A DNA stretch of 64,000 nt, taken from NCBI RefSeq assembly GCF_002844595.1, contig NZ_PJNW01000005.1, forward strand, positions 62,001 through 126,000, given 5' to 3'. The notes beneath the pieces are model-generated. The model had not been told where the DNA came from and ran no database searches. It worked only from the letters and a program-made list of their open reading frames with translations. Source of the DNA: Pleomorphomonas diazotrophica (GTDB lineage Bacteria; Pseudomonadota; Alphaproteobacteria; Rhizobiales; Pleomorphomonadaceae). The stretch's first letter is position 1. Each line of letters opens with the position of its first letter. This document shows positions 28,847-46,531 of this stretch, one piece after another. A program made the translations under genes and the position numbers.

Positions 28847-28867
28847 TTTCATGAAAATTCTCTTTCA
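28847..28867. promoter_or_regulatory. Candidate RpiR operator in the divergent promoter region
   Basis: The AT-rich gap holds TTTCATGAAA (perfect palindrome, 28847-28856) overlapping TGAAA-N6-TTTCA (28852-28867), with two more TTTCAT-like words nearby. TGAAA-spacer-TTTCA inverted repeats are typical of RpiR-family operators. It lies between both start codons and could control both directions. Confidence 0.55.
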
Positions 28868-28901: not shown

Positions 28902-28919
28902 ATGAAACTGGACCGATGA
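28902..28919 (+). CDS. Five-codon leader ORF overlapping the next start
   Basis: ATG at 28902 with a strong GGGAGG box 9 bases upstream encodes only MKLDR and then TGA. The TGA overlaps the ATG of the ammonia-lyase gene (ATGA), which itself has just a weak GGA box. This arrangement could feed ribosomes to the lyase by translational coupling. It is too short to prove from sequence. Confidence 0.4.
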   Translation: MKLDR

Positions 28920-30145
28920 CCGACCTTATCTCCAACCCAGCCTTCTCACCCGACAAAGCAGCCCTGCTTGTCAACACGGCTCGCAAAAACGGCCCCTATC
29001 CCGAGCCCCTCAAGGAGACGCTGTCGCACGCCGGCTATGTCACCGCCGCCGGGGTCATCACTTCCTGGCCCGGTTACGTGCCGACACCGCTCGCTTCTCT
29101 CACGACGCTGGCGGCGCGGCTCGGTGTGGCGAGCATCCGCTACAAGGACGAAAGCGGCCGCTTCGGCCTCGGCTCGTTCAAGGCGCTCGGCGGGGCCTAT
29201 GCGGTGTTCCGTCTGCTTGTCAAAGAACTCCGGCGACGTGTTGGCCATGTCGATGAGGCGGCACTGGCCGCCGGCCGGCTAAGAGAGGCGGCCAAGCATA
29301 TCACCGTCTGCTGCGCCACCGATGGCAATCATGGCCGTTCCGTTGCCTGGGGCGCACGGATGTTCGGCGCGCGGGCAGTGATCTTCATCCATGCCACCGT
29401 TTCAGAGCGACGCGCCGACGCCATCCGCCGCTATGGCGCCGAAGTCGTCCGCACGGAAGGAAACTACGACGATTCGGTGCGCGAGGCCGACCGGGCCGCC
29501 GCCGCCAACGGCTGGTTCGTCGTTTCCGACACCTCCTATCCCGGCTACACCGACATCCCCTGCGACGTCATGCAGGGCTACTCGGTGATGGTGGCCGAAG
29601 CTCTCGGCGCCTGTGACGTGCCCCCCACCCATGTCTTCACCCAGGCCGGCGTCGGCGGCCTCGCCGCCGCCGTCATCGCCCATCTCTGGGAAGCCTATGG
29701 CGCCAACATGCCCGCCGTCGTCGTGGTTGAGCCGGACAGGGCTGCCTGTCTTTATGAAAGCACCCGAGCCGGCCGGCCGACCGCCGTCACCGGTGATCTC
29801 AACACCATCATGGCCGGCATGGCCTGTGGCGAGCCGTCGGTGATCGCCTGGCCGATCGTCGAAGGCGGAGCATCCGCCTTCATGGTCATCCCCGACGAGG
29901 CGGCACTTGCCACAATGCAGCTCTTGGCGTCGGGCGCGGCGGGGGCCACCATCGTCGGCGGCGAATCGGGGGTTGCGGGTCTTGCCGGATTGATTGTTGC
30001 CGCCAGTCAGCCAGAGTGGCGACGGTCGCTTGGTCTCGACCGCGGCTCCCGTGTCCTGCTCATCGGGAGCGAGGGCGACACCGACCCGGATCTTTACGCC
30101 CGCATCGTCGGCCGCAGCGGCGACGCGGTTCGCGCTGGAGCATAG
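28916..30145 (+). CDS. Diaminopropionate ammonia-lyase (YgeX type)
   Basis: PLP-dependent fold-type II lyase that turns 2,3-diaminopropionate into pyruvate and two ammonia in characterised relatives. The protein has 409 residues. The PLP lysine is in FGLGSFKALGGAYAV (about K89). CCATDGNHGRSVAWGAR is the cofactor phosphate/substrate loop, and TQAGVGGLAAAV and GGESGVAGLAGL complete the family signature. E. coli YgeX is about 398 residues, similar throughout. It is the first full gene of the operon and sets its likely end product: pyruvate plus ammonia. The start overlaps a tiny leader ORF. Confidence 0.92.
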   Translation: MTDLISNPAFSPDKAALLVNTARKNGPYPEPLKETLSHAGYVTAAGVITSWPGYVPTPLASLTTLAARLGVASIRYKDESGRFGLGSFKALGGAYAVFRLLVKELRRRVGHVDEAALAAGRLREAAKHITVCCATDGNHGRSVAWGARMFGARAVIFIHATVSERRADAIRRYGAEVVRTEGNYDDSVREADRAAAANGWFVVSDTSYPGYTDIPCDVMQGYSVMVAEALGACDVPPTHVFTQAGVGGLAAAVIAHLWEAYGANMPAVVVVEPDRAACLYESTRAGRPTAVTGDLNTIMAGMACGEPSVIAWPIVEGGASAFMVIPDEAALATMQLLASGAAGATIVGGESGVAGLAGLIVAASQPEWRRSLGLDRGSRVLLIGSEGDTDPDLYARIVGRSGDAVRAGA

Positions 30146-30147
30146 TG

Positions 30148-31404
30148 ATGACAGATCTTTCCCCCGCCCTGCCCGTCAACGGCGATCGTCTCGTCGCGCG
30201 CCTCAAGGCGCTCGGGCAGATCGGCGCACTGCCGGAGGGTGGCGTCTGCCGGCTTGCCCTGACGCCGGAGGACGGGGCCGGCCGCGACCTCGTGGTCGGC
30301 TGGATGCGGGAGCAGGGTCTGGACGTGGCGATCGACCCGATCGGCAATATCTTCGGCACCCGCAGGGGCACGCAGGACGGCCCGTCGGTGATGATGGGCT
30401 CGCATATCGACACGGTGGCGACCGGCGGCCTCTATGACGGCAATCTCGGCGTGCTCGCCGGCCTCGAGGTGCTGCAAGCGCTTGATGACGCCGGCATCGC
30501 CACCGTCCATCCGGTGACTGTCGCCGCCTTCACCAACGAGGAAGGCGCCCGCTTCCAGCCGGACATGCTGGGCAGTCTCGTGCATGTCGGCGACCTGCCG
30601 CTGCAGGAGGCGCTCGACACCATTTCCATCGACGGTACGCGGCTCGGTGACGACCTCGCCGACATTGGCTATGCCGGCACCGCGGCGCTCGGCGGCATCA
30701 AGGCGGCCGCCTATCTCGAATATCATATCGAGCAGGGCCCGGTGCTGGAGGCCGAGGGCATCGACATCGGCGTCGTCGAGGGCGTGCAGGGCATTTCCTG
30801 GACCGAGATCACGCTGTCCGGCCGGTCGAGCCACGCCGGCGCAACGCCCATGCGCCTCCGGCGCGATGCCGGCCTTGCCGCCGCCCGCATCGCCCATGGC
30901 GTCGCCGACATCGCGAAATCGATCGGCGGTGACATGGTCGGCACGGTCGGTTCGCTACGTCTCCGTCCCAACCTCGTCAATGTCGTCGCCGAGATGGCAC
31001 AGATGACCGTCGACCTTCGCCATCCGCAGGAGAAAGTGCTGGCCGAGGCCGAGGCACGGCTCGCCGCCCTGGTGGCGAGGGTTGCCGAAGAGGAGCACGT
31101 CTCCTTCACCCGGCGCCAACTGGCCCGCTTCCAGCCGGTAGCCTTTGACCGCGATCTGGTCGGTCGCGTCGAGCACACGGCTAGGAGCCTTGGCCTTTCC
31201 ACCCGCCGCATGTTCTCCGGCGCCGGCCACGACGCCCAGATGCTGGCCCGCACCTGCCCGGCCGCCATGGTGTTCGTGCCGTCCATTGCCGGGCTCAGCC
31301 ACAACACCGCCGAATACACGGCGCCCGGCGACATCGCCAACGGCCTTGCCGTGCTCGGCACGCTGGCGCTGGAACTGGCCGGCCGCGCCAACTCACCCGC
31401 CTGA
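30148..31404 (+). CDS. Zn-dependent N-carbamoyl-L-amino-acid hydrolase / allantoate amidohydrolase family
   Basis: An M20-type amidohydrolase of 418 residues that hydrolyses N-carbamoyl (ureido) groups, releasing CO2 and ammonia, in this family. Metal-binding motifs: GSHIDTV (H86), YDGNLGV (D97), TNEEGARF (E131/E132), HIEQGPVLE and, at the C-terminus, SHNTAEYT. The substrate-binding insert has SGRSSHAGATPM, typical of AllC/AmaB/HyuC proteins. It starts two bases after the lyase stop, so translation is tightly linked. The exact substrate (allantoate, ureidoglycolate, an L-carbamoyl amino acid or 2,3-diureidopropionate) cannot be told; the operon favours a diaminopropionate precursor. Confidence 0.88.
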   Translation: MTDLSPALPVNGDRLVARLKALGQIGALPEGGVCRLALTPEDGAGRDLVVGWMREQGLDVAIDPIGNIFGTRRGTQDGPSVMMGSHIDTVATGGLYDGNLGVLAGLEVLQALDDAGIATVHPVTVAAFTNEEGARFQPDMLGSLVHVGDLPLQEALDTISIDGTRLGDDLADIGYAGTAALGGIKAAAYLEYHIEQGPVLEAEGIDIGVVEGVQGISWTEITLSGRSSHAGATPMRLRRDAGLAAARIAHGVADIAKSIGGDMVGTVGSLRLRPNLVNVVAEMAQMTVDLRHPQEKVLAEAEARLAALVARVAEEEHVSFTRRQLARFQPVAFDRDLVGRVEHTARSLGLSTRRMFSGAGHDAQMLARTCPAAMVFVPSIAGLSHNTAEYTAPGDIANGLAVLGTLALELAGRANSPA

Positions 31405-31418
31405 GGAGTACTGAAGAA

Positions 31419-32336
31419 ATGTCCCGCACCATCGTCGTCGGTGCCGCCCAGCTTGGCCCGATCGCCCGCGCCGACAGCCGCGAGGTGGTCGTTGCCAGGA
31501 TGATCGCTCTACTCGAAAAGGCCGCCCGGCGCGGCTGCGATCTCGTCGTCTATCCGGAACTGGCGCTGACCACCTTCTTCCCGCGCTGGTTCATGGAAGA
31601 CCAGGCCGAGGTCGACGCTTTCTTCGAGACCGAAATGCCCGGCCCGGCGACGGCGCCGCTGTTTGCCAAGGTCAAGGAACTCGGCGTCGCCATCAGCTTC
31701 GGCTATGCCGAGAAGACGGTGATCGACGGCCGTGTCAGGCGCTTCAACACCTCGATCATCGTCGACAAGACCGGCGCGATCGTCCATCGCTACCACAAGG
31801 TCCATCTACCTGGGCATACGGAGAACGAGCCCTGGCGGGCGTTCCAGCATCTCGAGAAGCGCTATTTCGAGCCGGGCGATACCTTCTTCGCGCCGGCCGA
31901 TTGCCTCGGCGGCAAGCTCGGCATGGCCATCTGCAACGATCGCCGCTGGCCGGAGACCTACCGCGAGCATGCCCTGCGCGGCACGGAAATGGTGCTGATC
32001 GGCTACAACACGCCCTATCACTATCCGCTCGCTCCCGAGCACGACCATCTCCAGTGCTTCCACAATCACCTGGCCATGCAGGCGGGCGCCTACGCCAACG
32101 GCATGTGGGTGGTGGGCGTCGGCAAGGCCGGCAACGAGGAGAACTGCGTGCTGATCGGCCAGAGCTGCATCATCGCGCCGACCGGCGAGATCGTCGCCAT
32201 GGCCTCGACGCTCGGCGACGAGCTGGTCACGCATGACTGCGACCTCGATCGCTGCACCGAGATCCGGGCCAATATCTTCAACTTCCAGAAGCACCGGCGG
32301 CCGGAAATGTATCCGCTCCTGTCGGCGCCGGTCTGA
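31419..32336 (+). CDS. N-carbamoyl-D-amino-acid hydrolase (nitrilase superfamily)
   Basis: A cytosolic carbon-nitrogen hydrolase of 305 residues, the same length as the Agrobacterium D-carbamoylase. The catalytic triad sits at the same positions: E47 (YPELALTTFF), K127 (HKVHLPGH) and C172 (AICNDRRWPE). Extended matches such as MPGP, FQHLEKRYFEPGD and SCIIAPTGEIVA make the subfamily call firm. In relatives it cleaves N-carbamoyl-D-amino acids to D-amino acid, CO2 and ammonia. It sits between the L-type carbamoylase and the YgfK-like gene. No hydantoinase is encoded in the operon, so its substrate is likely a ureido acid made by neighbouring enzymes (inference). Confidence 0.92.
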   Translation: MSRTIVVGAAQLGPIARADSREVVVARMIALLEKAARRGCDLVVYPELALTTFFPRWFMEDQAEVDAFFETEMPGPATAPLFAKVKELGVAISFGYAEKTVIDGRVRRFNTSIIVDKTGAIVHRYHKVHLPGHTENEPWRAFQHLEKRYFEPGDTFFAPADCLGGKLGMAICNDRRWPETYREHALRGTEMVLIGYNTPYHYPLAPEHDHLQCFHNHLAMQAGAYANGMWVVGVGKAGNEENCVLIGQSCIIAPTGEIVAMASTLGDELVTHDCDLDRCTEIRANIFNFQKHRRPEMYPLLSAPV

Positions 32337-32352
32337 TGCGGGATTGATTTGC

Positions 32353-34377
32353 ATGGCCGACCTGACGCCGATCCCATTGCCGGTGCTCATCAACCGGATG
32401 TTCCGCGAGCTTGAAGCGAAGAAGAGCGCCTTTCATCTGCCGCGCTTCAAGTTCGCCAAGGCGGCGGCCGGTCGCGATCTCTCCACCTCGATCTTCGGCC
32501 GCAGGGCGGCGACGCCCTTCGGGCCGGCAGCCGGGCCGCATACGCAGCTGGCGCAGAATATCGTCTTGAGCTGGCTGGCCGGTGGCCGGGTGATCGAGCT
32601 CAAGACGGTGCAGGTGCTCGATCACCTGGAGATCGCCCGCCCCTGCATCGACATGGAGACGGTGGGCTTCAACATCGAGTGGTCGCAGGAACTGTCCCTC
32701 CAACAATCGCTCGAGGAGTACGTCAAGGCGACGATGCTGATCGAGATGGCCAAGGCGGAGGGATTTGCCCCCGGCCTTGAGGACACCGTCATCGATATGA
32801 GCGTCGGCTACGATCTCGACGGCATTCGGTCGGATAAGGTGCGCGCCTTCATCGCCGGCATGAAGGACGCGAGTACTGTCATCGAGCGGCTGCGCCCGCA
32901 GATTCCCGAGGCCTACGCTCGCTTTCGCGATCTGGCGTTCCCGACCTGCATCTCCGACAGCGTCACCATCTCCACGTTCCACGGCTGTCCACCCAGCGAG
33001 ATCGAGGCGATTGCTGGTCATCTGATGGCCGAGGAAGGGCTCGACGTCGTCGTCAAGCTCAACCCGACGCTTCTCGGCAAAGCAGACCTCAACGCTCTCC
33101 TGCACAACAAGCTCGGCTACACCGACCTCGTGGTGCCCGACGCGACCTTCGAGAAGGACGCGAAATGGGGGGATGTAAAAGGTATCGTCTCCCGGCTGGG
33201 CGAGCTGGCCGACAAGCTCGGGCGCGGCTTCGGCGTCAAGTTCTCCAACACGCTGCTCGTTCATAACCACAAGCAGTTCTTCCCGGCCGGCACCGGCGAA
33301 ATGTATCTTTCCGGCCCACCGCTGCACGTGCTGGCCATCGAGTTGGTCGACCGCTTCCGCGCCGAGTTCGGCGACCGCTTCCCGATCTCCTTCTCCGCCG
33401 GCATCGACGTCGGCAACTTCGCCGACACGGTAGCGCTCGGCCTCAAGCCGGTCAGCGTCTGTACCGACCTCTTGAAGGGGGCGGGCTACGGCAAGGGCGC
33501 CGAGTATATTGCCGACCTCGCCGACCGCCTGGCCGAGGTGGAAGCATCCGACCTCGATACCTATGCCCTGAAAGCCTTCGGGCTTGCCGGAGCGGCGCTC
33601 GACGATCTCGATCTCCCAGCGGAGCGCAAGGCGAAGCTTGCCGCAGCGCTTGAGACGGGTGAAGATCTGCGAGAAGCCGCCGGCCCGGACTTCGACGCTT
33701 GGGTGTCGGCCGCCCGGCTTCGCAACACCGCCCATTATGCTGCCCGCGTGCGTGCCGACCGCCGCTACAGCCGGCCCGAGGTGGACAACCCGCCGCGCCG
33801 GACGGGCGTGGCACTGGCGCTTCTCGACTGCGAGACTTGCGGCAAGTGCGTCAACGTTTGTCCCAACGACGCAATCTTCCGCTATCCGCTGTCGCAGGAA
33901 CCGGTCGTTACGGCGGTGCTGCAACCGGGCCCTGGGATGGTGGTCGGCGAAACGCAGCCCGTGACGCGCGCCCAGCAGATCGGCATCTTCGCCGACGTCT
34001 GCAATCGCTGCGGCAACTGCGATGTCACCTGTCCGGAAACGGGCGGCCCGTTCGCCCGCAAAGCCAACCTGTTCGGTTCAGCCTCGAGCCTCGATGACGC
34101 GCCGGACCGCGATGGCCTCGCCATCGAACGGACGGCTATGGGACTACGTCTGCACGTGCGCGACGATGGCCGGCGCTTCACGATCGAAGATGACGGTACC
34201 CGCCTCACCTGCAACGGCGGCGGTTTCGACCTCTCGATCGACCCGGTCTCGCCGGAAGCGACCGTCGGCACCTCCGACAGCCCGGTCGATATCGGCCGCC
34301 TGATCCTCTTCGCCCGCATCGCCCGCGCCGTCACGGCGCCGACCATCGTCACCTATGCCAACGCCGCCTTCGACTGA
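32353..34377 (+). CDS. YgfK-like iron-sulfur oxidoreductase lacking the central flavin/NAD(P) domain
   Basis: A 674-residue protein. The first 440 residues match the N-terminal barrel of YgfK (the so-called putative selenate reductase subunit): AATPFGPAAGPHTQLAQNIV, GGRVIELKTVQVLD, STFHGCPPSEIEAI, VKLNPTLLG and GFGVKFSNTL. The C-terminal 190 residues match the YgfK ferredoxin end, with two 4Fe-4S motifs: CETCGKCVNVCP (C493-C503) and CNRCGNCDVTCP (C550-C560). The roughly 400-residue GltD-like FAD/NAD(P) domain that separates these in the 1030-residue E. coli protein is absent; the two halves join through a short linker near 430-490. A reductase role on a purine-derived ring is plausible but not shown by the sequence. 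Confidence 0.85.
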   Translation: MADLTPIPLPVLINRMFRELEAKKSAFHLPRFKFAKAAAGRDLSTSIFGRRAATPFGPAAGPHTQLAQNIVLSWLAGGRVIELKTVQVLDHLEIARPCIDMETVGFNIEWSQELSLQQSLEEYVKATMLIEMAKAEGFAPGLEDTVIDMSVGYDLDGIRSDKVRAFIAGMKDASTVIERLRPQIPEAYARFRDLAFPTCISDSVTISTFHGCPPSEIEAIAGHLMAEEGLDVVVKLNPTLLGKADLNALLHNKLGYTDLVVPDATFEKDAKWGDVKGIVSRLGELADKLGRGFGVKFSNTLLVHNHKQFFPAGTGEMYLSGPPLHVLAIELVDRFRAEFGDRFPISFSAGIDVGNFADTVALGLKPVSVCTDLLKGAGYGKGAEYIADLADRLAEVEASDLDTYALKAFGLAGAALDDLDLPAERKAKLAAALETGEDLREAAGPDFDAWVSAARLRNTAHYAARVRADRRYSRPEVDNPPRRTGVALALLDCETCGKCVNVCPNDAIFRYPLSQEPVVTAVLQPGPGMVVGETQPVTRAQQIGIFADVCNRCGNCDVTCPETGGPFARKANLFGSASSLDDAPDRDGLAIERTAMGLRLHVRDDGRRFTIEDDGTRLTCNGGGFDLSIDPVSPEATVGTSDSPVDIGRLILFARIARAVTAPTIVTYANAAFD

Positions 34378-34390
34378 ACGGACCCACCAG

Positions 34391-37033
34391 ATGCCCATGA
34401 TCACCCTCACCGTCAACGGTCGCGACCACCAACTTGAGGTCGAGGCGGACGAGACGCTGCTTTCCGTGTTGCGCGACCGCCTGAAGGTCACCTCGGTGAA
34501 GGACGCCTGCTCGGGTCAGGGACAGTGCGGCTGCTGTCTGGCGCTGATCGGCGGCAAGCCGAGCAAGACCTGCACCCTCAAGGCTGTAGCCGTGAAGGGC
34601 CGGCCGGTCGTCACGCTGGAAGGCGTCGATGCGGCGGAGCGCCAGCTCTACGCCGACGCTTTCCAGGCCGCTGCCGGTGTCCAGTGCGGCTTCTGCACCC
34701 CTGGTCTCGTGGTGCGGATCAAGGCGCTGACCGATGCCGGCGAGGCAACGGATCGGCAGGAGATCGCCGCCGCTCTTGACGGCCATCTCTGCCGCTGCAC
34801 CGGCTACAAGAAGGTGATCGACGCCGTCGAGCTGATCCGCGACGTCAAGGCGGGCGTGAAACCGCATCCGCAGCCGACAGCGGATGGCGGCGTCGGCCAG
34901 CCGGTCGAGCGTTTCCGGGGCGGCGACCTTGCGCTCGGCGATCGGCCGTTCCTGGCCGACATCGACGTGCCCGGCCTGCTGCATGGCGCATTCGTGCTGT
35001 CGCCGCACGCCCGGGCCCGCGTGAACTCCATCGACCTTTCGAAAGCCCTCGCCCATCCTGGCGTGGTGCGCATCGCCACCGCCGACGACGTGCCGGGCGA
35101 CCGCTGGGTCGGTCAGATCAAGAAGGACTGGCCGGTGTTCGTCGCGGTCGGAGAAGAGGTGCGTTATGTCGGCGACGTCATTGCCGCCGTTGCTGCCGAA
35201 ACGCCGCGTGCGGCCCGTGCCGCCGCCGCGCTCGTCGCCGTCGACTACACGGTGCTGGAACCGACGCTGTCGCCGGAGGAGGCGCTGAAGCCCGGCGCCC
35301 GGCAGGTCAACCCGCGCCAGCCCAACCTTCTGTCCGAGACGGTCATCGAGCGCGGCGACGCCGATGCGGCGCTCGCCGCCTCTGCCCATGTCGTTTCCGG
35401 CACATGGCAGACGCAGCGCATCGAGCATTTGTTCCTGGAGCCGGAAGCCTGTCTCGCCGTGCCGCTCGAAGACGGCCGCCTGCATCTCTATTCGCAGGGC
35501 CAGGGCGTGTTCGAGGACCGCAAGGCGGTGGCCGGCGTGCTGGGCGAGCCGGTGGACAATATCTTCGTCGAGCTGGTACCGACCGGCGGCGCCTTCGGCG
35601 GCAAGGAAGACATGACGGTGCAGGCACAGACGGCCGTGCTGGCCCGCCTGACCGGCCGGCCGGTGCGCCTGGTTCTCTCCCGCGAGGAGTCGGTGCGCGT
35701 CCATCCCAAGCGCCATCCGATGAAGATGGCCTACTCCGTCGGCTGCGACGCGGAGGGGCATATCACCGCCGCCAAGATCGACATTCTCGGCGACAGCGGC
35801 TGCTACGCCTCGGTGGGCGACAAGGTGCTGGAGCGCGCCGCCGGCCATGCTTGCGGGCCCTATCGGGTACCGGCGCTGTCCATCCATTCGATTGCCGCCT
35901 ACACCAACAATCCGCCCTGTGGCGCCATGCGCGGCTTCGGCGTCAACCAGACGTCGTTCGCCATGGAAGGCTGCCTCGACCTTCTAGCCGAGAAGGTCGG
36001 TATAGACGGCTGGGAAATGCGCTGGCGCAACGGCGTGCGGGTCGGCGACGTCTTCTCGTCGGGCCAGATCCTCGAAAAGTCGGTCGGCCTCGAAAAGTCG
36101 CTGCTTGCCGTCAAGGACGCCTATTACGCAGCGAAAGCCGAGGGCAAGGCGGTGGGCATCGCCTGCGCGGTGAAGAACTCCGGCATCGGCAACGGCGCGC
36201 TCGAATGGGGCAAGTGCCGCCTGGAAATCGAGGCGGAGGACCGCATCGGTCTCCATATTGGCTTCACCGAGATGGGACAGGGTCTGCTGACCATTTCCGC
36301 CCAGTCGGCAGCCGAGGTGACGGGCCTGCCGTCGTCGATCTTCGTGCCGCAGGTGAACAGCCGCTTCGATGTCGGTGTCGGCCAGACCACCGGGTCGCGC
36401 GGCACGCTCCTGGCCGGTAACGCGGTGATCAAGGCGGCGAAGGCGCTGCGCGCCGCGCTCGACGAAGGCAAGACGCTGAAGGATCTGGTCGGCGAGGTGT
36501 TCGCCGGCGACATCCTGATCGACGACACCACCGCGCCGGGGCAACTCAAGAACGGCAAGATCAAAACGCACACCGCCTTCGGCTGGGCGACGCAGGTGGC
36601 GATCCTCGACGACACCGGCCGCGTCGCCAAGGTGGTCGCCGCCCATGACGTCGGCAAGGCGCTCAACCCGAAGCTTGCCGAAGGACAGATCGAGGGCGCC
36701 GTGCACATGGGCCTTGGTTACGCGCTCACCGAACAGCTTCCCTGTGAGGATGGCATGCCGGTCACCGCCAACGTCCGCGAGATCGGCGTGCTCAGGGCCT
36801 CCGACATGCCGGAGGTGGAGGTGATCCTGATCGAGGAACACGAGCCGGAGGGGCCGTTCGGCGCCAAGGGTATCGGCGAGATCGGCCTCGTGCCGACGGC
36901 CGGTGCCGTCGCCGCGGCGCTGGCGGCTTTTGACGGCGTGCGGCGCACGGTGCTGCCGATGATCGACAGTCCGGCGGCGCGGGCGCTGTCGGTCGGCCTC
37001 GATCCCGCGCTCGATCGGAGCCAATGGCATTGA
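34391..37033 (+). CDS. Xanthine dehydrogenase-like molybdoenzyme, 2Fe-2S plus Mo-binding domains fused, no FAD domain
   Basis: An 880-residue hydroxylase of the xanthine oxidase family, closest in layout to the XdhD / selenium-dependent XDH group. Residues 1-80 form a plant-type 2Fe-2S domain (ACSGQGQCGCC, C40/C46/C49, then C61). Residues 85-155 form the second 2Fe-2S domain (GVQCGFCTPGL, LCRCTGYKKV). From about 185 comes the molybdopterin part with GGAFGGKEDM, AMRGFGVNQTS and the catalytic Glu in GAKGIGEIGLVPTAGAV. No FAD domain is fused and no FAD subunit gene is nearby. It overlaps the next gene by 10 bases. Likely substrate: a purine such as hypoxanthine, xanthine or urate (inference). 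Confidence 0.88.
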   Translation: MPMITLTVNGRDHQLEVEADETLLSVLRDRLKVTSVKDACSGQGQCGCCLALIGGKPSKTCTLKAVAVKGRPVVTLEGVDAAERQLYADAFQAAAGVQCGFCTPGLVVRIKALTDAGEATDRQEIAAALDGHLCRCTGYKKVIDAVELIRDVKAGVKPHPQPTADGGVGQPVERFRGGDLALGDRPFLADIDVPGLLHGAFVLSPHARARVNSIDLSKALAHPGVVRIATADDVPGDRWVGQIKKDWPVFVAVGEEVRYVGDVIAAVAAETPRAARAAAALVAVDYTVLEPTLSPEEALKPGARQVNPRQPNLLSETVIERGDADAALAASAHVVSGTWQTQRIEHLFLEPEACLAVPLEDGRLHLYSQGQGVFEDRKAVAGVLGEPVDNIFVELVPTGGAFGGKEDMTVQAQTAVLARLTGRPVRLVLSREESVRVHPKRHPMKMAYSVGCDAEGHITAAKIDILGDSGCYASVGDKVLERAAGHACGPYRVPALSIHSIAAYTNNPPCGAMRGFGVNQTSFAMEGCLDLLAEKVGIDGWEMRWRNGVRVGDVFSSGQILEKSVGLEKSLLAVKDAYYAAKAEGKAVGIACAVKNSGIGNGALEWGKCRLEIEAEDRIGLHIGFTEMGQGLLTISAQSAAEVTGLPSSIFVPQVNSRFDVGVGQTTGSRGTLLAGNAVIKAAKALRAALDEGKTLKDLVGEVFAGDILIDDTTAPGQLKNGKIKTHTAFGWATQVAILDDTGRVAKVVAAHDVGKALNPKLAEGQIEGAVHMGLGYALTEQLPCEDGMPVTANVREIGVLRASDMPEVEVILIEEHEPEGPFGAKGIGEIGLVPTAGAVAAALAAFDGVRRTVLPMIDSPAARALSVGLDPALDRSQWH

Positions 37034-38226
37034 CCCGTTCGATCACCAGTTCAGTCACCTTGGGGCCAGACCGGACGGGCCTCACCGTGGCGATCGTCGA
37101 TGGCGTGATCGCGGCGACAGCCGACCCGGCTGCTCCGGTGATCGCCTGTCCGGATGGCGAAATCGCGCCGGGCGCCGTCTGCGCCCATACCCATCTTTAC
37201 TCGGGCCTTGCGCCCTTCGGCATGCCGCCAGCCGAACCGGCGCCGGCCAGTTTCATCGAAATCCTGGAAAAGGTCTGGTGGCGGCTCGACCGGGCGCTTA
37301 ATGCAGAGGCGCTCAGGGCATCGGCCCGCGACTACATCGCCAAGGCATTGCTCGCCGGCACCACCAGCCTCGTCGATCATCACGAGTCGCCGCACTTCAT
37401 CAGCGGCTCGCTGCAGGTGCTGGCGAATGCCGCCGAAGACCTCGGCGTGCGGGCGCTTCTCGCCTTCGGCGCCACCGAGCGCAACTTCGGCCGTGCCGAA
37501 GCCGAGGCCGGTCTCGTCGAGTGCGGCAACGTCGAGGAGACGCCGCTCGTCCGTCGCCTGATCGGCCTGCACGCCAGCTTCACCGTGTCGGACGACACCA
37601 TTCGGGCAGCGGGCGAGCTTTGCCAAACGCTGGGCACCGTGATGCACGTCCATGTTGCCGAAGCTCTAGAGGATGTCGAGGACGCACGGGAGCGTGGCTA
37701 CGCCGGTCCGCTCGAACGGCTTGTTGCCCTTGATGCGCTGCCGGCCGGATCGATCCTGGCCCATGGCGTGCACCTTTCCGGCGACGAGGTGCGTGAGGCC
37801 GACAGACGCAGCCTCTGGCTGGTCCAGAACCCACGCTCCAACGAAGGCAACCGCGTCGGCTATGCCGTCAATCTCCGCCACTCGGACAAGGTCGCGCTCG
37901 GTTGCGACGGCTGGAACGCCGACATGGCGGTCGAGGAAGCCGCCCTTTTCCGCCTGGCCGAGACGCATGGTGACGATCGGGGGGCGACACGGCTTGAAGC
38001 GGGCCAACGGTTGATCGCCGAACGCTTCGGGTTTGCCGCCACGGGGCTCGCGGCCGGCGCGGCCGGCGACGTGGTGGTTCGGAAGGATGGCAAGGTAACG
38101 ACGGTGGTGGTCGGTGGGCGTGTCGTCGTTCGCGACGGTTCCCTCGTCGCAGCCGATGCCGGCGCGATCGAATCCGAGGCGCGAGCCGAGGCCGCACGTC
38201 TCTGGAGGAGAATGTCGGCGCTCTGA
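37024..38226 (+). CDS. SsnA-like amidohydrolase
   Basis: A metal-dependent amidohydrolase of the deaminase/chlorohydrolase group, 400 residues. Motifs: GAVCAHTHLYSGLAPFGM (HxH metal site; SsnA has a similar HTHFY form), HVHVAEALEDVED, a His in LAHGVHLS and the terminal Asp in LGCDGWNADM. The C-terminus returns to the small beta domain (GDVVVRKDGKVTTVVVGGRV). In E. coli ssnA sits with ygfK and xdhD, exactly as here. It overlaps the molybdoenzyme gene by 10 bases. The reaction is unknown; opening of a reduced purine ring or deamination are options (inference). Confidence 0.85.
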   Translation: MALTRSITSSVTLGPDRTGLTVAIVDGVIAATADPAAPVIACPDGEIAPGAVCAHTHLYSGLAPFGMPPAEPAPASFIEILEKVWWRLDRALNAEALRASARDYIAKALLAGTTSLVDHHESPHFISGSLQVLANAAEDLGVRALLAFGATERNFGRAEAEAGLVECGNVEETPLVRRLIGLHASFTVSDDTIRAAGELCQTLGTVMHVHVAEALEDVEDARERGYAGPLERLVALDALPAGSILAHGVHLSGDEVREADRRSLWLVQNPRSNEGNRVGYAVNLRHSDKVALGCDGWNADMAVEEAALFRLAETHGDDRGATRLEAGQRLIAERFGFAATGLAAGAAGDVVVRKDGKVTTVVVGGRVVVRDGSLVAADAGAIESEARAEAARLWRRMSAL

Positions 38227-38279
38227 TCCCCGGTGACGACGCGGTCGGCCAAGGCTATTGTCGTCGCAGGGAGAGCCAG

Positions 38280-38960
38280 ATGATCTATTTTCTCGACACC
38301 GCCGACACCGCCGCCATCGCCCGCCTTGCCGACCTCTATCCGATCGCCGGCGTCACCACCAATCCGACGCTGATCGCGCGCGAGAAGCGGCCGTTTGCCG
38401 ACATCATCAAGGATATCCGCGCTGTGATCGGCGACGGTGCCATGCTGCACGTCCAGGTGACGGGCAACGACGCCGACACCATGGTGGCCGAGGCGCGCAA
38501 GCTCGCCGACTTCGTCGGGGCCGGCTTCCATCCCAAGGTGCCGGTGACGGCGGAGGGCATCAAGGCGATCCGGCGGCTGTCCGGCCTCGGTTTCCGCGTG
38601 ACGGCGACGGCCATCGTCACGGCCCAGCAGGCGCTGATGGCGGCGGTGGCGGGCGCGGCCTTCACCGCGCCCTATGTCAACCGGCTCGACATGATCGGCG
38701 GCGACGGCGTCAGGGTCGTCGCCGACATCGTCCATCTCTTCCGCATCCACGCCCTGCCGACTCGGCTGCTGACCGCCTCATTCAAGAACGTCCAGCAGGT
38801 GCATGACATCGCCATGGCCGGCGCGCATTCGGCAACGCTGCCGCCCGACATACTGGAAGCGCTGATCCGCCACCCGCTGACCGATTCCGGCATCGCCGGC
38901 TTTGCCGCCGACTGGGCGGCCGCCTATGGCGAAGGCCGAACCACGGCCGACCTCATCTGA
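38280..38960 (+). CDS. Fructose-6-phosphate aldolase / transaldolase-like protein (TalC/FSA family)
   Basis: A class I aldolase of 226 residues, typical FSA size. MIYFLDTADTAAIARL is the family N-terminus, TTNPTLIAREKRPF the substrate loop, and the Schiff-base Lys lies in GFHPKVPVTAEG. TATAIVTAQQAL and YVNRLDMIGGDG complete the barrel. GGGAGAG lies before the ATG. It is 53 bases after the SsnA-like gene on the same strand, so it is probably the last gene of the operon. FSA proteins act on dihydroxyacetone or hydroxyacetone donors; how that links to ureido or purine chemistry is unclear. Confidence 0.9.
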   Translation: MIYFLDTADTAAIARLADLYPIAGVTTNPTLIAREKRPFADIIKDIRAVIGDGAMLHVQVTGNDADTMVAEARKLADFVGAGFHPKVPVTAEGIKAIRRLSGLGFRVTATAIVTAQQALMAAVAGAAFTAPYVNRLDMIGGDGVRVVADIVHLFRIHALPTRLLTASFKNVQQVHDIAMAGAHSATLPPDILEALIRHPLTDSGIAGFAADWAAAYGEGRTTADLI

Positions 38961-39277: not shown

Positions 39278-42200
39278 TCAGGCGCGTAGCGGTTCGGCCA
39301 CGTCGTCGGCCGACATGGCGCCATAGTCGCCGAGAACGGCGCTGAAATCGCGTGGCCGGCTGAAGAAGTAGCCTTGGCCGTAACGGACGCCGAGAGCAGC
39401 CAACTCCCTCAGCGTCGCCTCGTCCTCAATCCGTTCGGCGATCACGTCCACGCCGAGTTCGCAGCCGATTTCGTTGATCGCCCGCACGACGGTACGGTCA
39501 TAGGCGCTGCCGGCCATGTTGTGAACGAAGCTGCCGTCGATCTTGATGGCATCGACGTCGAAACTCTTGAGATAGGTGAAGGACGACAGACCGGAGCCGA
39601 AATCGTCGAGACTCACCCGGCAGCCGATGCCACGAGCGGCACGGATGAAGTCGCGCGCCACCTCGAAGGAGTTGATCACCGCCGTCTCGGTGATCTCGAG
39701 CGTCAGCCGCGACGGCGACAGAGGGCTGGCCTTGAAGAGGTCGGCGAGATAGCGCCAGAGCGTCGGGTCGTTGAGCGAGTTGGCCGACAGGTTGACGGCG
39801 ACGCCGAGATCGGGCACCGTCATGATTGACGGTCCGAAATCGCCGATGACCTTGGCGAGTACCCAGCGGTCGATGGCGCCCATCAGCTCGAAGCGCTCGG
39901 CGGCGGGAATGAAGCTATCGGGGGTCGACAGGCCGCCGTTCTCATCGAGCATGCGGATGAGGAGTTCGAGCGAGCGGCTCGTCGCCTCTGGAGCCGCAAT
40001 CGACCGGATCTCCTGGGCATAAAGCACGAAGCGGTCATTCTCGATTGTTTCGCGGATGCGGGCGGCCATGCGGAAGTCGCTCATGTGCCGTTGCGCTTCG
40101 CCGGTTTCCTGCAGGAACACCGAGACGCGACCTCGACCAGCCGCTTTGGCCGCGTAGCAGGCGACATCGGCCTCGGCGAGGACCGCCTCGGCGCTTGCCG
40201 TGGTCACGTCGACCTGGGAGACGCCGGCACTGGCGCCGATCTCATAGACCTTGCCCTCCCAGGTGAACCGGATGGCTTCGATGGCACCGATGAGCTTTTC
40301 GCCGACGAAGGCCGCGAACTGACGGTCACAATTCTCGATCAGCACGGCAAACTCGTCGCCGCCCAGCCGGGCCAGGCAATCGCTGATCGGCACGATCGCC
40401 CGCATGGTGCGCGCCACTTCCTGCAGAAGGGCATCGCCAGCCAGATGTCCGGCCGTGTCGTTGACGATCTTGAAGCGGTCGAGGTCGACGAACAGCAGAC
40501 CGTGCCGGCTGCCATCCTGACGAGCCGCGGCGATCATGCTCTGGATGCGCGTCTCGAAATGGCGGCGATTGGCAAGGCCGGTGAGGTCGTCGTGGGTGGC
40601 AGCATGGGCAAGCGACCGCTGCATGGCGCGTTCGGCCGACACGTCCTGGAAAACCAGGACGGCGCCAGCCCGACCATCGGCTCCGGCGGCAGCGACTGGT
40701 GCGGCCGCCTCGCGAATGTAGTGCACATCGCGGCCACGCACGTCGATGACCTGCGTTCCGACCCGTTCGACAGGGGCGCCTGTTTCCAACACCTGCCGCA
40801 CGCAGGAGGTGGCCGGCAGGCCGCTGTCGTCATGAACGGCCTGGAAGACTTCCTCGATCGGACGACCGCAGGCATCCGCCTCGGAGAAGCCGGTCATACG
40901 TCGGGCGGCGGGATTGATCAGCGCGACGCGACCATCGGCGTCGGTGGCGATCACGCCGTCGGAAATCGCGTGCAAGGTTGTCTTGAGGCGTTCCTTCTCG
41001 TCCCGCAACGCCTGAGCGGAGCTGACCTGCTCGCTGATATCCCAGGCCGTACCGAGCAGCAGCCTGTCGCCGTTGGACAGCGTCACCCGATCGGCAAGCA
41101 CGCGGATATGCACGACGCCGCGTGTCGGGCTCAGCAGACGGCAGGTGGTGTTGACCCGTGCCTCGGGATCGACCGCTGCCTGATGCAGCATGTCGGACAG
41201 GGCCGGCCGGTCTTCCGGATGAACGAAGCGCAGCCATTCCAGTGAGCGCTGTCCGGCGCCGTCACCTGTCATCTGACCGAAGGTCTCGCCATTCCAAGTC
41301 GCGGCACCGGTGGCGAGATCGATGCTCCAGAGGCCGATGCCGCCGGCTTCGACGGCGAGACGCACGCGCTCCTCGAGGAGCTGAATCTCCCGTTCTGCAG
41401 CCTTGTTGCGCGAAATGTCGGTGTGCGTGCCGATGATGCGAAGCGGTCGTCCCTCTTCGTCGCGGGCGATCGTCTTGCCACGGTCGAGGATCCATACCCA
41501 GTGACCGTCCTTGTGGCGAAGGCGGAACTCCGCCTCAAGCCATTCCGTCTCGCCGCGTTCATGAGCATCGTTGACAAGAAGAAACGCGTCGCGGTCGTCG
41601 GGATGCATCAATTGGAGCCAAGCGTCGCCGCCGTCGATCGACACGTCGTCGGGCTCGTAGCCAAGCATTCGCTTCCAGGTGGGCGAGGTGTAGAGGCGGC
41701 CGGCCGGCTTGTCGACGTCCCACACGCCCTGCTGGCCGTTCTCCAGCGCGAAGGCCCAGCGGCTCTCGCTCTCGGCTATGGCTTCGAGCGTCCGCTTCTT
41801 GAGATCGATGTCCTCAACCTGGGTGATCAACCGATCCGGCCGGCCTGTCGCGGGGTCAGTGAAGACGATGATGGACACTTCCACCCAGAAGACTTCGCCT
41901 GACTTGCGCACGTAGCGCTTCTCGGCCTTGAGGCTGCGAATCCTGCCTTCGGAGATTCCCTCGCAAAAACTGTCCAGCCGGTCGCGATCCTCCTCGTAGG
42001 TGATGTCCTTGAAGCTGCGTCCAATGAGCTCAGCCTCGCTATATCCCGTCATGGCGCAGAAGGCGGCGTTGACCTTTCGGTAGAGGCAGTCGGCATCGAT
42101 GATCGTCACGCCGATACTGGCGTCGTCCATCGAGCGGCGAAACAGGTTCTCGCTTTCGGCGAGATCGCGCTCACGCTGGCGCAGGCGTTCGAGCAACACG

Positions 42201-43093
42201 CAGGTGGCGATCGGCAACAGCGTGCCGACGGAGACGCCGAGCGGCATCAACACCGGCAACTGCAGGGCGTCGGCCTTGCCGTAGTTCGCCATCATGGTGA
42301 CGAACCAGACGGCACCTGAGAGGATGGCCATATCGACCGGTCGCAGGACAAAGCTCGCCAGCAGCAGGGGGACGGCGAAGAACACCACGGGCTCGGGCAG
42401 GGTCGAGGTCGCGGCCAGCGCACCAGCCGAGAACAGCGCCACCATCAGCGCGAACAGTCCCCCCGTCAGCCAAGCCGGTCTTTCGCCCAGGCGCCCGGCA
42501 TCCCGCTGAAGATAAAGCAGCGAGGGCAGGAAGATGGCAAAGCCGGAGGTCGCCCCGGCCCACCAGACGTCGATTGGCATCGGCAGGCTCGACAGGAAAC
42601 CAGTCGCCCTGAGCGACAGGACGACGACAAGACAGACCAGGGGCGGAATGAAGGTCGCGGCAAGCCCGGCGGCAACCTCGAACACTCCCTCGTTGCGCGA
42701 CCTCTCCGCCCACGTCCGAACGAGGTCGATCATCATCAGGCCGATACCCATCATCAGGCCGGTGACGAAAAAGAAGGAAAGCAGGAAGGACGGCTCGCCG
42801 CCGCTGAAGGAAGCAAACAGGAACCAGCCGACAAGAGCGCCGGCAAGGCCGGCAATGCGGTCTCCAGCGGTCCGGTTGGCCAGGAGAGCGACAATCACCG
42901 CGTCAGCCGGCCAGACGGGCGTTCGTATATCGGCCAGCGCGACGGTGGCGATGATCACCGTCGACAGCCCGGCGTACAGCAGACCGCAAGCTGCAAATAT
43001 GCCGAGCCGACCTCCGGGGAACACGCCTTTCAGCACCGCAGCTCCATGCCTTGGATGAGGATGCGGCAAGTTTGACAGGTCGACATGAAACAA
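39278..43093 (-). CDS. MASE1-PAS-GGDEF-EAL membrane signalling protein
   Basis: Cyclic-di-GMP turnover protein of 1271 residues. The N-terminal 300 residues form a multi-helix MASE1-like membrane sensor (FAACGLLYAGLSTVIIATVA, TPVWPADAVIVALL). Four PAS-type modules follow to about 830 (for instance FCAMTGYSEAELIGRSFKDI and MLGYEPDDV). The diguanylate cyclase domain has the intact motif LGGDEFAVL (about 910). The EAL phosphodiesterase domain has ELLIRML in place of EAL (about 1040) but keeps NLSANSL, EITETAVI, LDDFGSGLSS, KIDGSFV and AERIED. Both activities are therefore possible; which dominates is unknown. It stands alone as a single gene. Confidence 0.92.
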   Translation of the reverse strand: MFHVDLSNLPHPHPRHGAAVLKGVFPGGRLGIFAACGLLYAGLSTVIIATVALADIRTPVWPADAVIVALLANRTAGDRIAGLAGALVGWFLFASFSGGEPSFLLSFFFVTGLMMGIGLMMIDLVRTWAERSRNEGVFEVAAGLAATFIPPLVCLVVVLSLRATGFLSSLPMPIDVWWAGATSGFAIFLPSLLYLQRDAGRLGERPAWLTGGLFALMVALFSAGALAATSTLPEPVVFFAVPLLLASFVLRPVDMAILSGAVWFVTMMANYGKADALQLPVLMPLGVSVGTLLPIATCVLLERLRQRERDLAESENLFRRSMDDASIGVTIIDADCLYRKVNAAFCAMTGYSEAELIGRSFKDITYEEDRDRLDSFCEGISEGRIRSLKAEKRYVRKSGEVFWVEVSIIVFTDPATGRPDRLITQVEDIDLKKRTLEAIAESESRWAFALENGQQGVWDVDKPAGRLYTSPTWKRMLGYEPDDVSIDGGDAWLQLMHPDDRDAFLLVNDAHERGETEWLEAEFRLRHKDGHWVWILDRGKTIARDEEGRPLRIIGTHTDISRNKAAEREIQLLEERVRLAVEAGGIGLWSIDLATGAATWNGETFGQMTGDGAGQRSLEWLRFVHPEDRPALSDMLHQAAVDPEARVNTTCRLLSPTRGVVHIRVLADRVTLSNGDRLLLGTAWDISEQVSSAQALRDEKERLKTTLHAISDGVIATDADGRVALINPAARRMTGFSEADACGRPIEEVFQAVHDDSGLPATSCVRQVLETGAPVERVGTQVIDVRGRDVHYIREAAAPVAAAGADGRAGAVLVFQDVSAERAMQRSLAHAATHDDLTGLANRRHFETRIQSMIAAARQDGSRHGLLFVDLDRFKIVNDTAGHLAGDALLQEVARTMRAIVPISDCLARLGGDEFAVLIENCDRQFAAFVGEKLIGAIEAIRFTWEGKVYEIGASAGVSQVDVTTASAEAVLAEADVACYAAKAAGRGRVSVFLQETGEAQRHMSDFRMAARIRETIENDRFVLYAQEIRSIAAPEATSRSLELLIRMLDENGGLSTPDSFIPAAERFELMGAIDRWVLAKVIGDFGPSIMTVPDLGVAVNLSANSLNDPTLWRYLADLFKASPLSPSRLTLEITETAVINSFEVARDFIRAARGIGCRVSLDDFGSGLSSFTYLKSFDVDAIKIDGSFVHNMAGSAYDRTVVRAINEIGCELGVDVIAERIEDEATLRELAALGVRYGQGYFFSRPRDFSAVLGDYGAMSADDVAEPLRA

Positions 43094-43812: not shown

Positions 43813-44682
43813 TCAGGCGAAGACGATGGTCTTCTTGCCGTGCATCAGAACGCGTGCCTCAAGATGCAGCTTCACCGCACGGGCAAGGACGCGCGACTCA
43901 TTGTCGCGGCCGACGGCGACCAGATCCTCGGCGGAGAGGGCGTGGGTGACGCGCGAGGTTTCCTGCTCGATGATCGGACCCTCGTCGAGGTCGGGCGTCA
44001 CGTAGTGAGCGGTGGCGCCGATCAGCTTGACGCCGCGCTCGTGCGCCTGGTGGTAGGGCCGGGCGCCCTTGAAGGACGGCAGGAAGGAGTGATGAATGTT
44101 GATGATCTTGCCGAACAGCGCCGACGACAGCTTGTCGGACAGAACCTGCATGTAGCGGGCAAGCACCACCAGTTCGGCGCCGGTCTCTTCGACGAGAGCC
44201 ATCACCTTGGCTTCCTGCTCTTCCTTGTTCGACTTGTCCTTGTCGACCGGCCAGTAATAGTAGGGAATGCCCTGCGCCTCGGCGAAGGCGCGGCTGTCCT
44301 CGTGATTGGAGACGATGGCGGCCACCTCCGCCTTCAGCCAGCCGACTCGGATCTGGTACATCAGGTGCTGCAGGCAGTGGTCGAACTTCGACACCATGAT
44401 GACGATCTTCGGCGTGCGGGCGGCGTCAACGAGATCGACGGTCATTCCGAAGGTCTCGATGGTGTCGGACAGTGCGGCGCGGATCGTCTCGGCGCTCAGG
44501 GCGGCCGGCGTCTCGAAGGCGATGCGCATGAAGAAGCGGTTGGTAACGCGGTCCCAGAACTGGGCGCTTTCGGCGATGTTGCCACCGAGACCGGCAAGGA
44601 TGGTGGTGACCGAGGCGACGATGCGCGGACGATCGGCGCAGGAGAGCGTGAGAATGTGGGTGCGCTTGTGAGCGTCGGCCAT
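43813..44682 (-). CDS. purU: Formyltetrahydrofolate deformylase PurU
   Basis: Hydrolyses 10-formyltetrahydrofolate to formate and tetrahydrofolate, balancing one-carbon pools and supplying formate for purine synthesis. The protein has 289 residues. An N-terminal ACT domain (ILTLSCADRPRIVASVTTIL) is followed by the formyltransferase-like domain with SNHEDSRAFA, NIHHSFLPSFKGARPYHQA (catalytic Asn and His) and TPDLDEGPIIEQE (catalytic Asp). Adjacent to a decayed copy of its own C-terminal part. Stand-alone gene. Confidence 0.95.
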   Translation of the reverse strand: MADAHKRTHILTLSCADRPRIVASVTTILAGLGGNIAESAQFWDRVTNRFFMRIAFETPAALSAETIRAALSDTIETFGMTVDLVDAARTPKIVIMVSKFDHCLQHLMYQIRVGWLKAEVAAIVSNHEDSRAFAEAQGIPYYYWPVDKDKSNKEEQEAKVMALVEETGAELVVLARYMQVLSDKLSSALFGKIINIHHSFLPSFKGARPYHQAHERGVKLIGATAHYVTPDLDEGPIIEQETSRVTHALSAEDLVAVGRDNESRVLARAVKLHLEARVLMHGKKTIVFA

Positions 44683-44780
44683 GGTCGGAAACCTCGTCGG
44701 CAGTTCAGTCGACGCTAGTTAGCTTGGCCGGCCCGGAGAAGAAAGAGGCTAAAGCATTCAGATGCCGCGCCGGCAGGATT

Positions 44781-45845: not shown

Positions 45846-46531
45846 GAGGAGGCCCTCCTGAACCGGCGGGCAATGACCTCCGAGGCGACGAGAGCGGCAA
45901 GGCCGATAACGGCGGCGATAACCGAGAGGAGAAGCGCCTCGGCGTCGCCCTCCGGACTCTGGCTTGCCGTGTAGATGGCCGAGGCGATGGTGCGCGTCTC
46001 ACCTGGAATGTTGGAGACGAAGGTGATGGTGGCGCCGAACTCGCCCAGCGCCTTGGCAAAACCCAGCGTCGCACCGACCAGAATGCCGGGCAGCGACAAT
46101 GGCAAGGTCACCAAAAAGAAGGTGGAGACCGGGCCGGCGCCCAGAGTGCCGGACGCCTGTTCCAACCGGGCGTCGACCGCCTCGATGGACAGTCGGATCG
46201 CGCGGACGATGATCGGCAGCGCCATGATCACGGCGGCGACCACGGCGCCGGTCCAGCGAAAGGCGAAGACGATGCCGAAATGCTGGTCGAGAAAGGCGCC
46301 GACCGGTCCCTTGCGGCCCAGGAGCAGCAGCAGCACATAGCCCGTCACCACCGGCGGCAGCACCAGGGGCAGATGAATGACTCCGTCGAACAGTGCCTTG
46401 CCGGGGAAGCGCCCGCGGGCCAGGACCAAGGCCAGCAGGGTGGACAGCGGGACGCCCCACAAGGTCGCCACGGCGGCGACCTTGAAGCTCAGGGCGATGG
46501 CGATCCAGGCGTCTGGGGAAAGTTCCGGCAT
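45842..46531 (-). CDS. modB: Molybdate ABC transporter permease ModB
   Basis: Inner-membrane permease of 229 residues with about five hydrophobic helices, for example AIALSFKVAAVATLWGVPLS and LPLVLPPVVTGYVLLLLLG. The cytoplasmic EAA-type loop that docks to ModC reads ASGTLGAGPVSTFFLVTLPL, followed by GFAKALGEFGATITF, a strong ModB signature. It sits 56 bases downstream of modA and overlaps modC by 4 bases. Confidence 0.94.
   Translation of the reverse strand: MPELSPDAWIAIALSFKVAAVATLWGVPLSTLLALVLARGRFPGKALFDGVIHLPLVLPPVVTGYVLLLLLGRKGPVGAFLDQHFGIVFAFRWTGAVVAAVIMALPIIVRAIRLSIEAVDARLEQASGTLGAGPVSTFFLVTLPLSLPGILVGATLGFAKALGEFGATITFVSNIPGETRTIASAIYTASQSPEGDAEALLLSVIAAVIGLAALVASEVIARRFRRASS

Follow-up and report, generated by a model that had tools for sequence, protein, structure and literature searches.

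Gene content and conservation of the operon

The 64,000-nucleotide stretch analysed here (the window; contig NZ_PJNW01000005.1, positions 62,001 to 126,000) comes from the alphaproteobacterium Pleomorphomonas diazotrophica. It carries an operon of seven plus-strand genes (28916–38960), all with ATG starts and separated by 2, 14, 16, 13, −10 and 53 bases, that is probably a variant of the reductive purine degradation cluster. In order, these genes encode a diaminopropionate ammonia-lyase of the YgeX type (28916–30145, 409 aa), an M20-family amidohydrolase of the allantoate amidohydrolase, beta-ureidopropionase and L-carbamoylase family (30148–31404), an N-carbamoyl-D-amino-acid hydrolase of the nitrilase fold (CN_hydrolase, 31419–32336; hereafter D-carbamoylase), a short YgfK (32353–34377, 674 aa), an XdhD-like molybdoenzyme (34391–37033), an SsnA-like amidohydrolase (37024–38226, 400 aa) and a fructose-6-phosphate aldolase/transaldolase-like protein (38280–38960). 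Two gene starts were corrected: that of ygfK is placed at 32353, and that of xdhD is probably 34391. All seven genes of an initial annotation, which had listed them as same-strand genes with gaps of at most 53 bases, were found. It had overlooked a divergently transcribed RpiR-family regulator with HTH_6 and SIS domains (Pfam PF01418, PF01380; 27936–28796, minus strand), and between this gene and the operon lies a conserved palindrome, TGAAA-N6-TTTCA (28852–28867), which is a putative RpiR operator.

The operon is real and conserved. Gene order of the regulator and operon is kept in 12 congeneric loci as far as their contigs extend (L025 stops within ssnA, L036 within ygfK), and 13 of 14 Pleomorphomonas genomes (all but G010) have an N-terminal YgfK match, as opposed to none of six genomes from other genera of the family; the arrangement is thus not due to chance. 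Identities to the window proteins are 93–99% (D-carbamoylase), 90–96% (XdhD) and 92–95% (M20) in congeners other than G018, where they are 89%, 82% and 80%, respectively; for YgfK they are 78–89% among the Pleomorphomonas loci, with one uncultured member at 68%. The D-carbamoylase frame is split in two of the 12 congeneric loci. Both are from soil metagenome-assembled genomes (MAGs), CTSoil_107 (L046:4570-5467) and CTSoil_106 (L057:2876-3761), with the break near residue 225, which may be a true frameshift or an assembly error.

More distant relatives were gathered by scanning one genome per species with a YgfK alignment, and the best 80 of 320 related loci were retained, nine of them from Pleomorphomonas. 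Genes were assigned in these 80 loci at identity thresholds of 45% (NIT), 50% (M20), 40% (YgeY), 35% (YgeW), 40% (XdhD), 60% (UacY), 40% (PALPb), 38% (DAL) and 30% (others), and the proteins for family searches were chosen with crude gene picking. The aldolase-like protein (TIGR00875, 222 bits, under the cut-off of 246; PDB match FSA) directly follows ssnA in the window and in nine of the 10 congeneric loci long enough to include it, the exception being L031 of G018, and in none of the 71 loci from outside Pleomorphomonas. All seven families named by the initial annotation are present in the window, but the last of them lies outside the conserved core. A sugar pathway centred on the aldolase, prompted by this last gene and by the RpiR regulator, was rejected on the same grounds.

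Reductases, lyase and carbamoyl hydrolases

In E. coli, the route described by Li and colleagues (2025; PMC12507026) runs from urate to yanthine (XdhD–YgfM), which YgfK reduces and SsnA ring-opens to give ureidomethyl-hydantoin; HyuA then yields 2,3-diureidopropionate, YgeW produces albizziin by phosphorolysis, and YgeY and YgeX lead on to pyruvate. The corresponding cluster, ygeW-ygeX-ygeY-hyuA-yqeA...ygfK-ssnA-ygfM-xdhD, had been described by earlier comparative genomics (PMC4016543, PMC2276186). The operon shares homologues of XdhD, YgfK, SsnA and YgeX with it, as well as a presumed end in the conversion of diaminopropionate to pyruvate, which supports the earlier view of the operon as a variant of this cluster.

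YgfK is unusually built. It scores 391 bits against TIGR03315, below the cut-off of 835, and matches positions 4–404 and 884–983 of the 1012 in that profile, leaving the middle unmatched. This profile match, together with an alignment, shows a flavin mononucleotide (FMN)-barrel reductase domain and a 4Fe-4S domain, without the flavin adenine dinucleotide (FAD)/NAD(P)H domain of E. coli YgfK; the 4Fe-4S motif cysteines are invariant across 27 sequences. An AlphaFold model built on these 27 aligned sequences has a mean predicted local distance difference test (pLDDT) score of 87 and a predicted template modelling (pTM) score of 0.89, with residues 88–105 below a pLDDT of 50. Foldseek matches the model to dihydroorotate and dihydropyrimidine dehydrogenases (E ~1e-9, template modelling score ~0.35 of the query), that is, over the FMN barrel, and most long alignments to dihydropyrimidine dehydrogenase have root mean square deviations > 20 and are uninformative beyond that barrel.

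The XdhD-like protein scores 890 bits against TIGR03311 (cut-off 830), and by its Pfam domains has the 2Fe-2S domains fused to the molybdenum subunit while the FAD domain is missing; the operon contains no YgfM homologue. That XdhD and YgfK both lack a FAD/NAD(P)H module suggests that they probably receive their electrons from ferredoxin, which in a nitrogen-fixing genus is a natural candidate donor. Ferredoxin has likewise been proposed for clostridial reductases without FAD modules (PMC12507026). One Pleomorphomonas isolate is reported to encode nitrogenase, denitrification genes and hydrogenases (PMC13286885), and two members of the genus to have an [FeFe]-hydrogenase with its maturases (PMC4967309), and we infer that such genes fit a ferredoxin-rich, oxygen-poor way of life. 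The family name of TIGR03311 also suggested selenium dependence. This was rejected on the marker YqeB (TIGR03309), which exceeds its cut-off in none of the 14 genus genomes (G007 gives a single weak match at E = 4.6e-4; the search did not extend to YqeC or SelD); YqeB is given as a marker for selenium-dependent molybdenum hydroxylases by Haft and Self (PMC2276186).

The remaining enzymes shared with E. coli are more conventional. The lyase scores 514 bits against NF006058 (cut-off 276), matches PDB entries 5ygr and 4d9g, and is 41% identical to E. coli YgeX; it retains the equivalents of K77 and D120, which we take to act on the two isomers of the substrate. Both best NCBIfam families of the SsnA-like protein, NF005540 and TIGR03314, are SsnA models (265 and 248 bits), both below cut-off (444 for NF005540); it is 38% identical to E. 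coli SsnA across 397 columns, with the HxH, HxHxxE, HG and DG motifs aligned and retained. An SsnA homologue is the marker that Li and colleagues used to find such clusters (PMC12507026).

Clusters without a YgeX type often contain one or both of two pyridoxal phosphate enzymes, PALPa (threonine-synthase-like) and PALPb (distantly cysteine-synthase-like), in some cases along with an L-serine dehydratase-like gene (examples include L063:11735-14371, L069:2935-5765, L118:15085-16530 and L124:18319-19734). PALPb is present in 21 of the 80 loci and the YgeX type in 11, and none has both (p = 0.06), so PALPb may be an alternative, unrecognised diaminopropionate lyase.

The two hydrolases set the operon apart. 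Neither the YgeW/UacY nor the YgeY type is encoded in it, and the D-carbamoylase and an AllC-like M20 enzyme stand in their places; none of five Pleomorphomonas genomes searched, all other than the source genome, has a UacY match at E ≤ 1e-40. Against N-carbamoyl-D-amino-acid hydrolase (PDB 1erz) the nitrilase-fold enzyme scores 417 bits, as compared with 70 for N-carbamoylputrescine amidase, and it keeps E47, K127, C172 and R175-R176; the Glu-Lys-Cys triad and the arginine pair after the cysteine are presumably functional residues of N-carbamoyl-D-amino-acid hydrolase. The M20 enzyme scores 468.5 bits against NF006769 (cut-off 452), and its PDB matches (5i4m, 5thw, 4wjb, 8c46) are hydantoinase/carbamoylase-family, N-carbamoyl-beta-alanine and N-carbamoyl-L-amino acid hydrolases. 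It shares 43% identity with the M20 protein encoded in the pyrimidine locus of the same genome, and 23% with YgeY. With D-carbamoylase and M20 present and no YgeW or YqeA in the operon, the carbamoyl groups are most likely removed by hydrolysis and not by phosphorolysis, as the initial annotation had it.

Which hydrolase does what is suggested by the company each keeps. Mapping known genes on the loci, along with the Pfam domains of ten chosen neighbours, showed that most M20 clusters hold either a D-carbamoylase or an Amidohydro_3 (UacY-like) protein. Among the 23 loci with an M20 gene (≥ 50% identity), 14 have the D-carbamoylase, six the UacY-like protein, none both and three neither (Fisher p = 0.0008), and without the nine Pleomorphomonas loci the corresponding numbers are 5, 6, 0 and 3 of 14 (p = 0.03); since the genomes are related, the Fisher p-values given here are too small. 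At the level of 28 whole genomes, 15 have a D-carbamoylase, eight a strong UacY match (76–100% identity to that of L074), one both and six neither (p = 0.01). The sole genome with both is that of Roseiarcus, where the D-carbamoylase lies at a separate locus adjoining an M20 gene of 37% identity. Three of the six genomes with neither have weak UacY matches (31–34%), and one of the six, the L068 genome, encodes a homologue of YgeW (68%).

The M20 loci with neither gene include that of Siculibacillus lacustris (L084), which has a D-carbamoylase (79%) elsewhere in the genome beside RpiR and a hydantoinase (L128); the genome of L086 has two D-carbamoylases elsewhere, and that of L085 only a weak UacY match. 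In S. lacustris 45 residues that match the C-terminus of the D-carbamoylase are left between M20 and ygfK (L084:9851-9985), with the full-length gene in the interval L128:7814-10154, as if the gene had moved.

The constancy of M20 while D-carbamoylase and UacY alternate points to M20 as occupying the YgeY slot and the D-carbamoylase the YgeW slot. We thus infer that hydrolysis of the 2-ureido (D) group, the task of YgeW/UacY elsewhere, would fall to the nitrilase-fold enzyme, and that of the 3-ureido group, the task of YgeY, to M20. For the UacY-like protein of L074 the structural matches are D-aminoacylase and N-acyl-D-glutamate deacylase, so both alternatives for the first slot are D-type by family; Li and colleagues likened UacY to the deacylase 3GIQ, and describe C. 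difficile UacY as a hydrolytic alternative to YgeW with albizziin as its product (PMC12507026).

As a diagnostic marker the D-carbamoylase was rejected, as it is found in 67 of 385 Alphaproteobacteria genomes (even draw, E ≤ 1e-60), whereas short YgfK is rare, occurring at this cut-off in one of the 385, the source genome itself. A single origin of the cluster D-carbamoylases is unsupported: the tree requires four changes, of which the starred branches force three, though these three could also be one gain and two losses, and L159 is counted as a cluster row despite lying on a different contig from its cluster.

A proposed pathway and its alternatives

We regard it as probable that the operon is a hydrolytic, flavin-subunit-free variant of reductive purine degradation, with urate the probable substrate, ferredoxin the probable electron donor, and RpiR control. 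XdhD would strip the 6-oxo group from urate to give 2,8-dioxopurine (yanthine), short YgfK would reduce the pyrimidine ring of this compound, and SsnA would open the reduced ring. A dihydropyrimidinase/D-hydantoinase, probably the one from the pyrimidine locus, would open the second ring to yield D-2,3-diureidopropionate, from which the D-carbamoylase would hydrolyse the 2-ureido group to give D-albizziin and M20 the 3-ureido group to give D-2,3-diaminopropionate, which the lyase would convert to pyruvate and ammonia.

The second ring opening depends on a gene elsewhere in the genome. Dihydropyrimidinase had been noted as missing along with YgeW and YgeY; all three are absent from the operon, but the source genome does contain one dihydropyrimidinase above the family cut-off (611 bits), located with PreT, PreA, RutR and a candidate M20 beta-ureidopropionase (L126). 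Each of the 28 genomes searched has one or more such enzymes above this cut-off, and one lies near YgfK in 13 of the 80 loci; that of Pleomorphomonas would serve both the pyrimidine and the purine routes. Reductive pyrimidine degradation (PreT/PreA, dihydropyrimidinase, beta-ureidopropionase), whose substrate is uracil or thymine, resembles the proposed pathway in FMN/Fe-S ring reduction, ring opening and ureido hydrolysis by an M20 enzyme, and differs in having its own separate locus in the same genome.

Several observations weigh against parts of this proposal, and they bear on three alternatives. On the one hand, the two hydrolases could have the opposite roles in the same pathway, with M20 taking the 2-ureido and the nitrilase-fold enzyme the 3-ureido group, which we consider unlikely. 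The M20 family does include L-carbamoylases for alpha-ureido acids, and of the two studies from 2025, that of Liu and colleagues, as related in a review (PMC12990295), has YgeW cleave the 3-ureido group. The exclusion between D-carbamoylase and UacY rests on the M20 subset, as it is not significant across all 80 loci (both 0, D-carbamoylase 17, UacY 7, neither 56; p = 0.34). Moreover, in L111 (MAG Ww197) a D-carbamoylase (49%) is found beside YgeW-like (29%) and YqeA-like (48%) genes, which fits a YgeY-type role; the YgeW-like match lies under the 35% threshold and was kept as a counter-example. The hydrolase role may therefore vary between lineages, and the L111 D-carbamoylase groups in the tree with those of two actinobacterial loci. 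Against swapped roles stand the constancy of M20 where the nitrilase-fold enzyme alternates with UacY, whose reported product albizziin implies 2-ureido cleavage, and the fact that the nitrilase-fold enzyme is a D-carbamoylase by sequence. As to L111 itself, its gene row (3385–11590) of YgeW-like, YqeA-like, D-carbamoylase, XdhD, SsnA and short YgfK mixes phosphorolytic and hydrolytic parts.

On the other hand, the same reductive enzymes could be fed by another substrate (xanthine, hypoxanthine, a methylated purine or a related heterocycle), or XdhD could be an ordinary oxidising hydroxylase acting before YgfK, a reading to which we give about the same low probability as to swapped roles. XdhD keeps the Glu/Arg/Glu residues of the xanthine dehydrogenase (XDH) purine site, to which we ascribe a purine-site role in ordinary XDH, with Arg where E. 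coli XdhD has Gln, and it aligns a Ser with Glu606 of E. coli XdhD; together these would allow an ordinary xanthine-type reaction. Glu606 has been proposed to orient urate for yanthine formation (PMC12507026). The operon also has no UacT-like permease. NCS2 permeases are present as one copy each in 13 of the 14 genus genomes, that of the source included, and as a second copy in G018, and the copy examined, from congener G017, is RutG-like and hence of the pyrimidine type. All 14 genomes contain OHCU decarboxylase, which marks the oxidative urate route, and Pfam Uricase has no match in the source genome (PuuD/HpxO-type urate oxidases and HIU hydrolase were not searched for). For urate speak the betaproteobacterial clusters L063, L069 and L072, which are of the same gene type (short YgfK 54–57% identical) and contain HyuA and a homologue of the urate permease UacT (50–52% to that of E. 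coli), and also the downstream genes of the operon, which suit 2,3-diureidopropionate, derived in the published pathway from urate via yanthine. Least probable is that the operon scavenges hydantoins or N-carbamoyl amino acids, its YgfK and XdhD homologues being incidental: such D-carbamoylases are common in Alphaproteobacteria, as the count above shows, but in the window, its congeners, L054 and L056 the XdhD, YgfK and SsnA genes form one unbroken run with those of both hydrolases, and the diaminopropionate lyase is conserved. The absence of a hydantoinase or HyuA from the operon tells against scavenging and is also a point against the proposed urate pathway.

The urate pathway as proposed differs from each known system. 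Relative to the E. coli cluster, the operon lacks YgeW and YqeA (phosphorolysis), the YgeY type, HyuA, YgfM, UacT and the FAD domain of YgfK, and has an RpiR regulator beside it instead of ygeV, the sigma-54 activator gene of E. coli; Pleomorphomonas also differs in having no YqeB over cut-off. The UacX/UacY cluster of C. difficile is similar in its hydrolytic 2-ureido cleavage, its reductases without FAD modules and its proposed ferredoxin donor, while the operon has YgfK instead of the PydA-type UacX, D-carbamoylase instead of the D-aminoacylase UacY, and the AllC-like M20 instead of YgeY. The clusters of Telmatospirillum (L074), Sterolibacterium (L069) and the Rhodovulum PH10 type (L130) share the XdhD and M20 types, an RpiR regulator (L074, L130) and short YgfK (within the L074 and L069 clusters, and in Rhodovulum PH10 on another contig, L060). 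In these three a UacY-like D-aminoacylase replaces the D-carbamoylase, and in L069 and L130 PALPa/PALPb occur without the YgeX type.

The suggestion that this variant may be undescribed is therefore only partly right. The underlying reductive urate pathway, including a hydrolytic version with UacY, was published in 2025, whereas the D-carbamoylase/M20 combination, the RpiR regulator and the environmental spread were not in the literature found and appear new. The main text of PMC12507026, supplements excluded, contains none of the terms 'carbamoylase', 'PF00795', 'RpiR', 'Alphaproteobacteria' or 'nitrilase', and a literature search that excluded most subscription papers and supplements returned nothing on Pleomorphomonas with uric acid or on this variant.

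Distribution and regulation

Short YgfK also occurs in Propionivibrio dicarboxylicus, Roseiarcus fermentans, Telmatospirillum siberiense and Rhodovulum sp. PH10, and in MAGs from soil, groundwater and bog, settings that speak against a purely gut origin of the pathway. Rhodoplanes tepidamans has it too, with no further cluster gene seen in the 22 kb examined. A broader reading, to which we give somewhat less than even weight, is that reductive urate degradation is an old, modular and environmentally widespread pathway and no gut adaptation, with its 2-ureido step filled by three unrelated enzymes (YgeW, UacY and the nitrilase-fold D-carbamoylase, the last recruited repeatedly). As part of this tentative reading, two unrelated D-type hydrolases in one slot would mean that the pathway runs through chiral intermediates of D (R) configuration and loses its 2-ureido group first. 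The review PMC12990295 treats as open the order of cleavage, the stereochemistry, the electron donor and the evolutionary origin, for which it mentions a suggested gut origin. If the reading is true, the environmental version would answer the first two, and a natural version built on the well-known D-carbamoylase family makes both directly testable.

RpiR homologues are present in 14 of the 80 loci, nine of them from Pleomorphomonas, and in L128, L129 and L130, adjoining the same cluster genes in other genera. The half-sites of TGAAA-N6-TTTCA are invariant in all 12 Pleomorphomonas intergenic sequences, the window included, and the palindrome recurs at cluster genes in Alpha- and Betaproteobacteria. 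In Siculibacillus (L128:7502), where RpiR, D-carbamoylase and hydantoinase are found together, an exact copy separates RpiR from the D-carbamoylase gene; others precede M20 or RpiR in L061, L063, L070 and L105, and one lies in the xdhD–ygfK interval of Propionivibrio (L072). Sites with one mismatch precede YgfK in L055, L058, L062 and L074, and in L072 another lies ~110 bp beyond the point where the uacT match ends; pairs of sites spaced 30 bp apart occur in L055, L061, L072, L074, L105 and L130. Exact sites number five in the 71 non-Pleomorphomonas loci, as against six in total (at most one each) for 19 permuted half-sites. One-mismatch matches are also found away from cluster genes (for example L094, L103 and L119), and for the window alone one site with at most one mismatch is nothing out of the ordinary (it arose in 39 of 100 shuffles). 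No site was found in L084, L054 or L056, and the pyrimidine locus L126 has none even when one mismatch is allowed. This pattern is consistent with an RpiR-type regulator that would bind TGAAA-N6-TTTCA and control the operon, and the candidate operator offers a handle for finding further pathway genes.

Elsewhere in the source genome, an OHCU decarboxylase gene lies between two M20 hydrolase genes, with a RibD-like gene, all on one strand (L125:7024-11357). Just 3' of the operon, the minus strand encodes a large PAS-GGDEF-EAL protein (39281–43093), and ~5 kb downstream, also on the minus strand (43816–48096), are a formyltetrahydrofolate deformylase-like gene (ACT and Formyl_trans_N) and a binding-protein, permease and ATPase set (SBP_bac_11, TOBE), which to judge by these domains might possibly transport molybdate.

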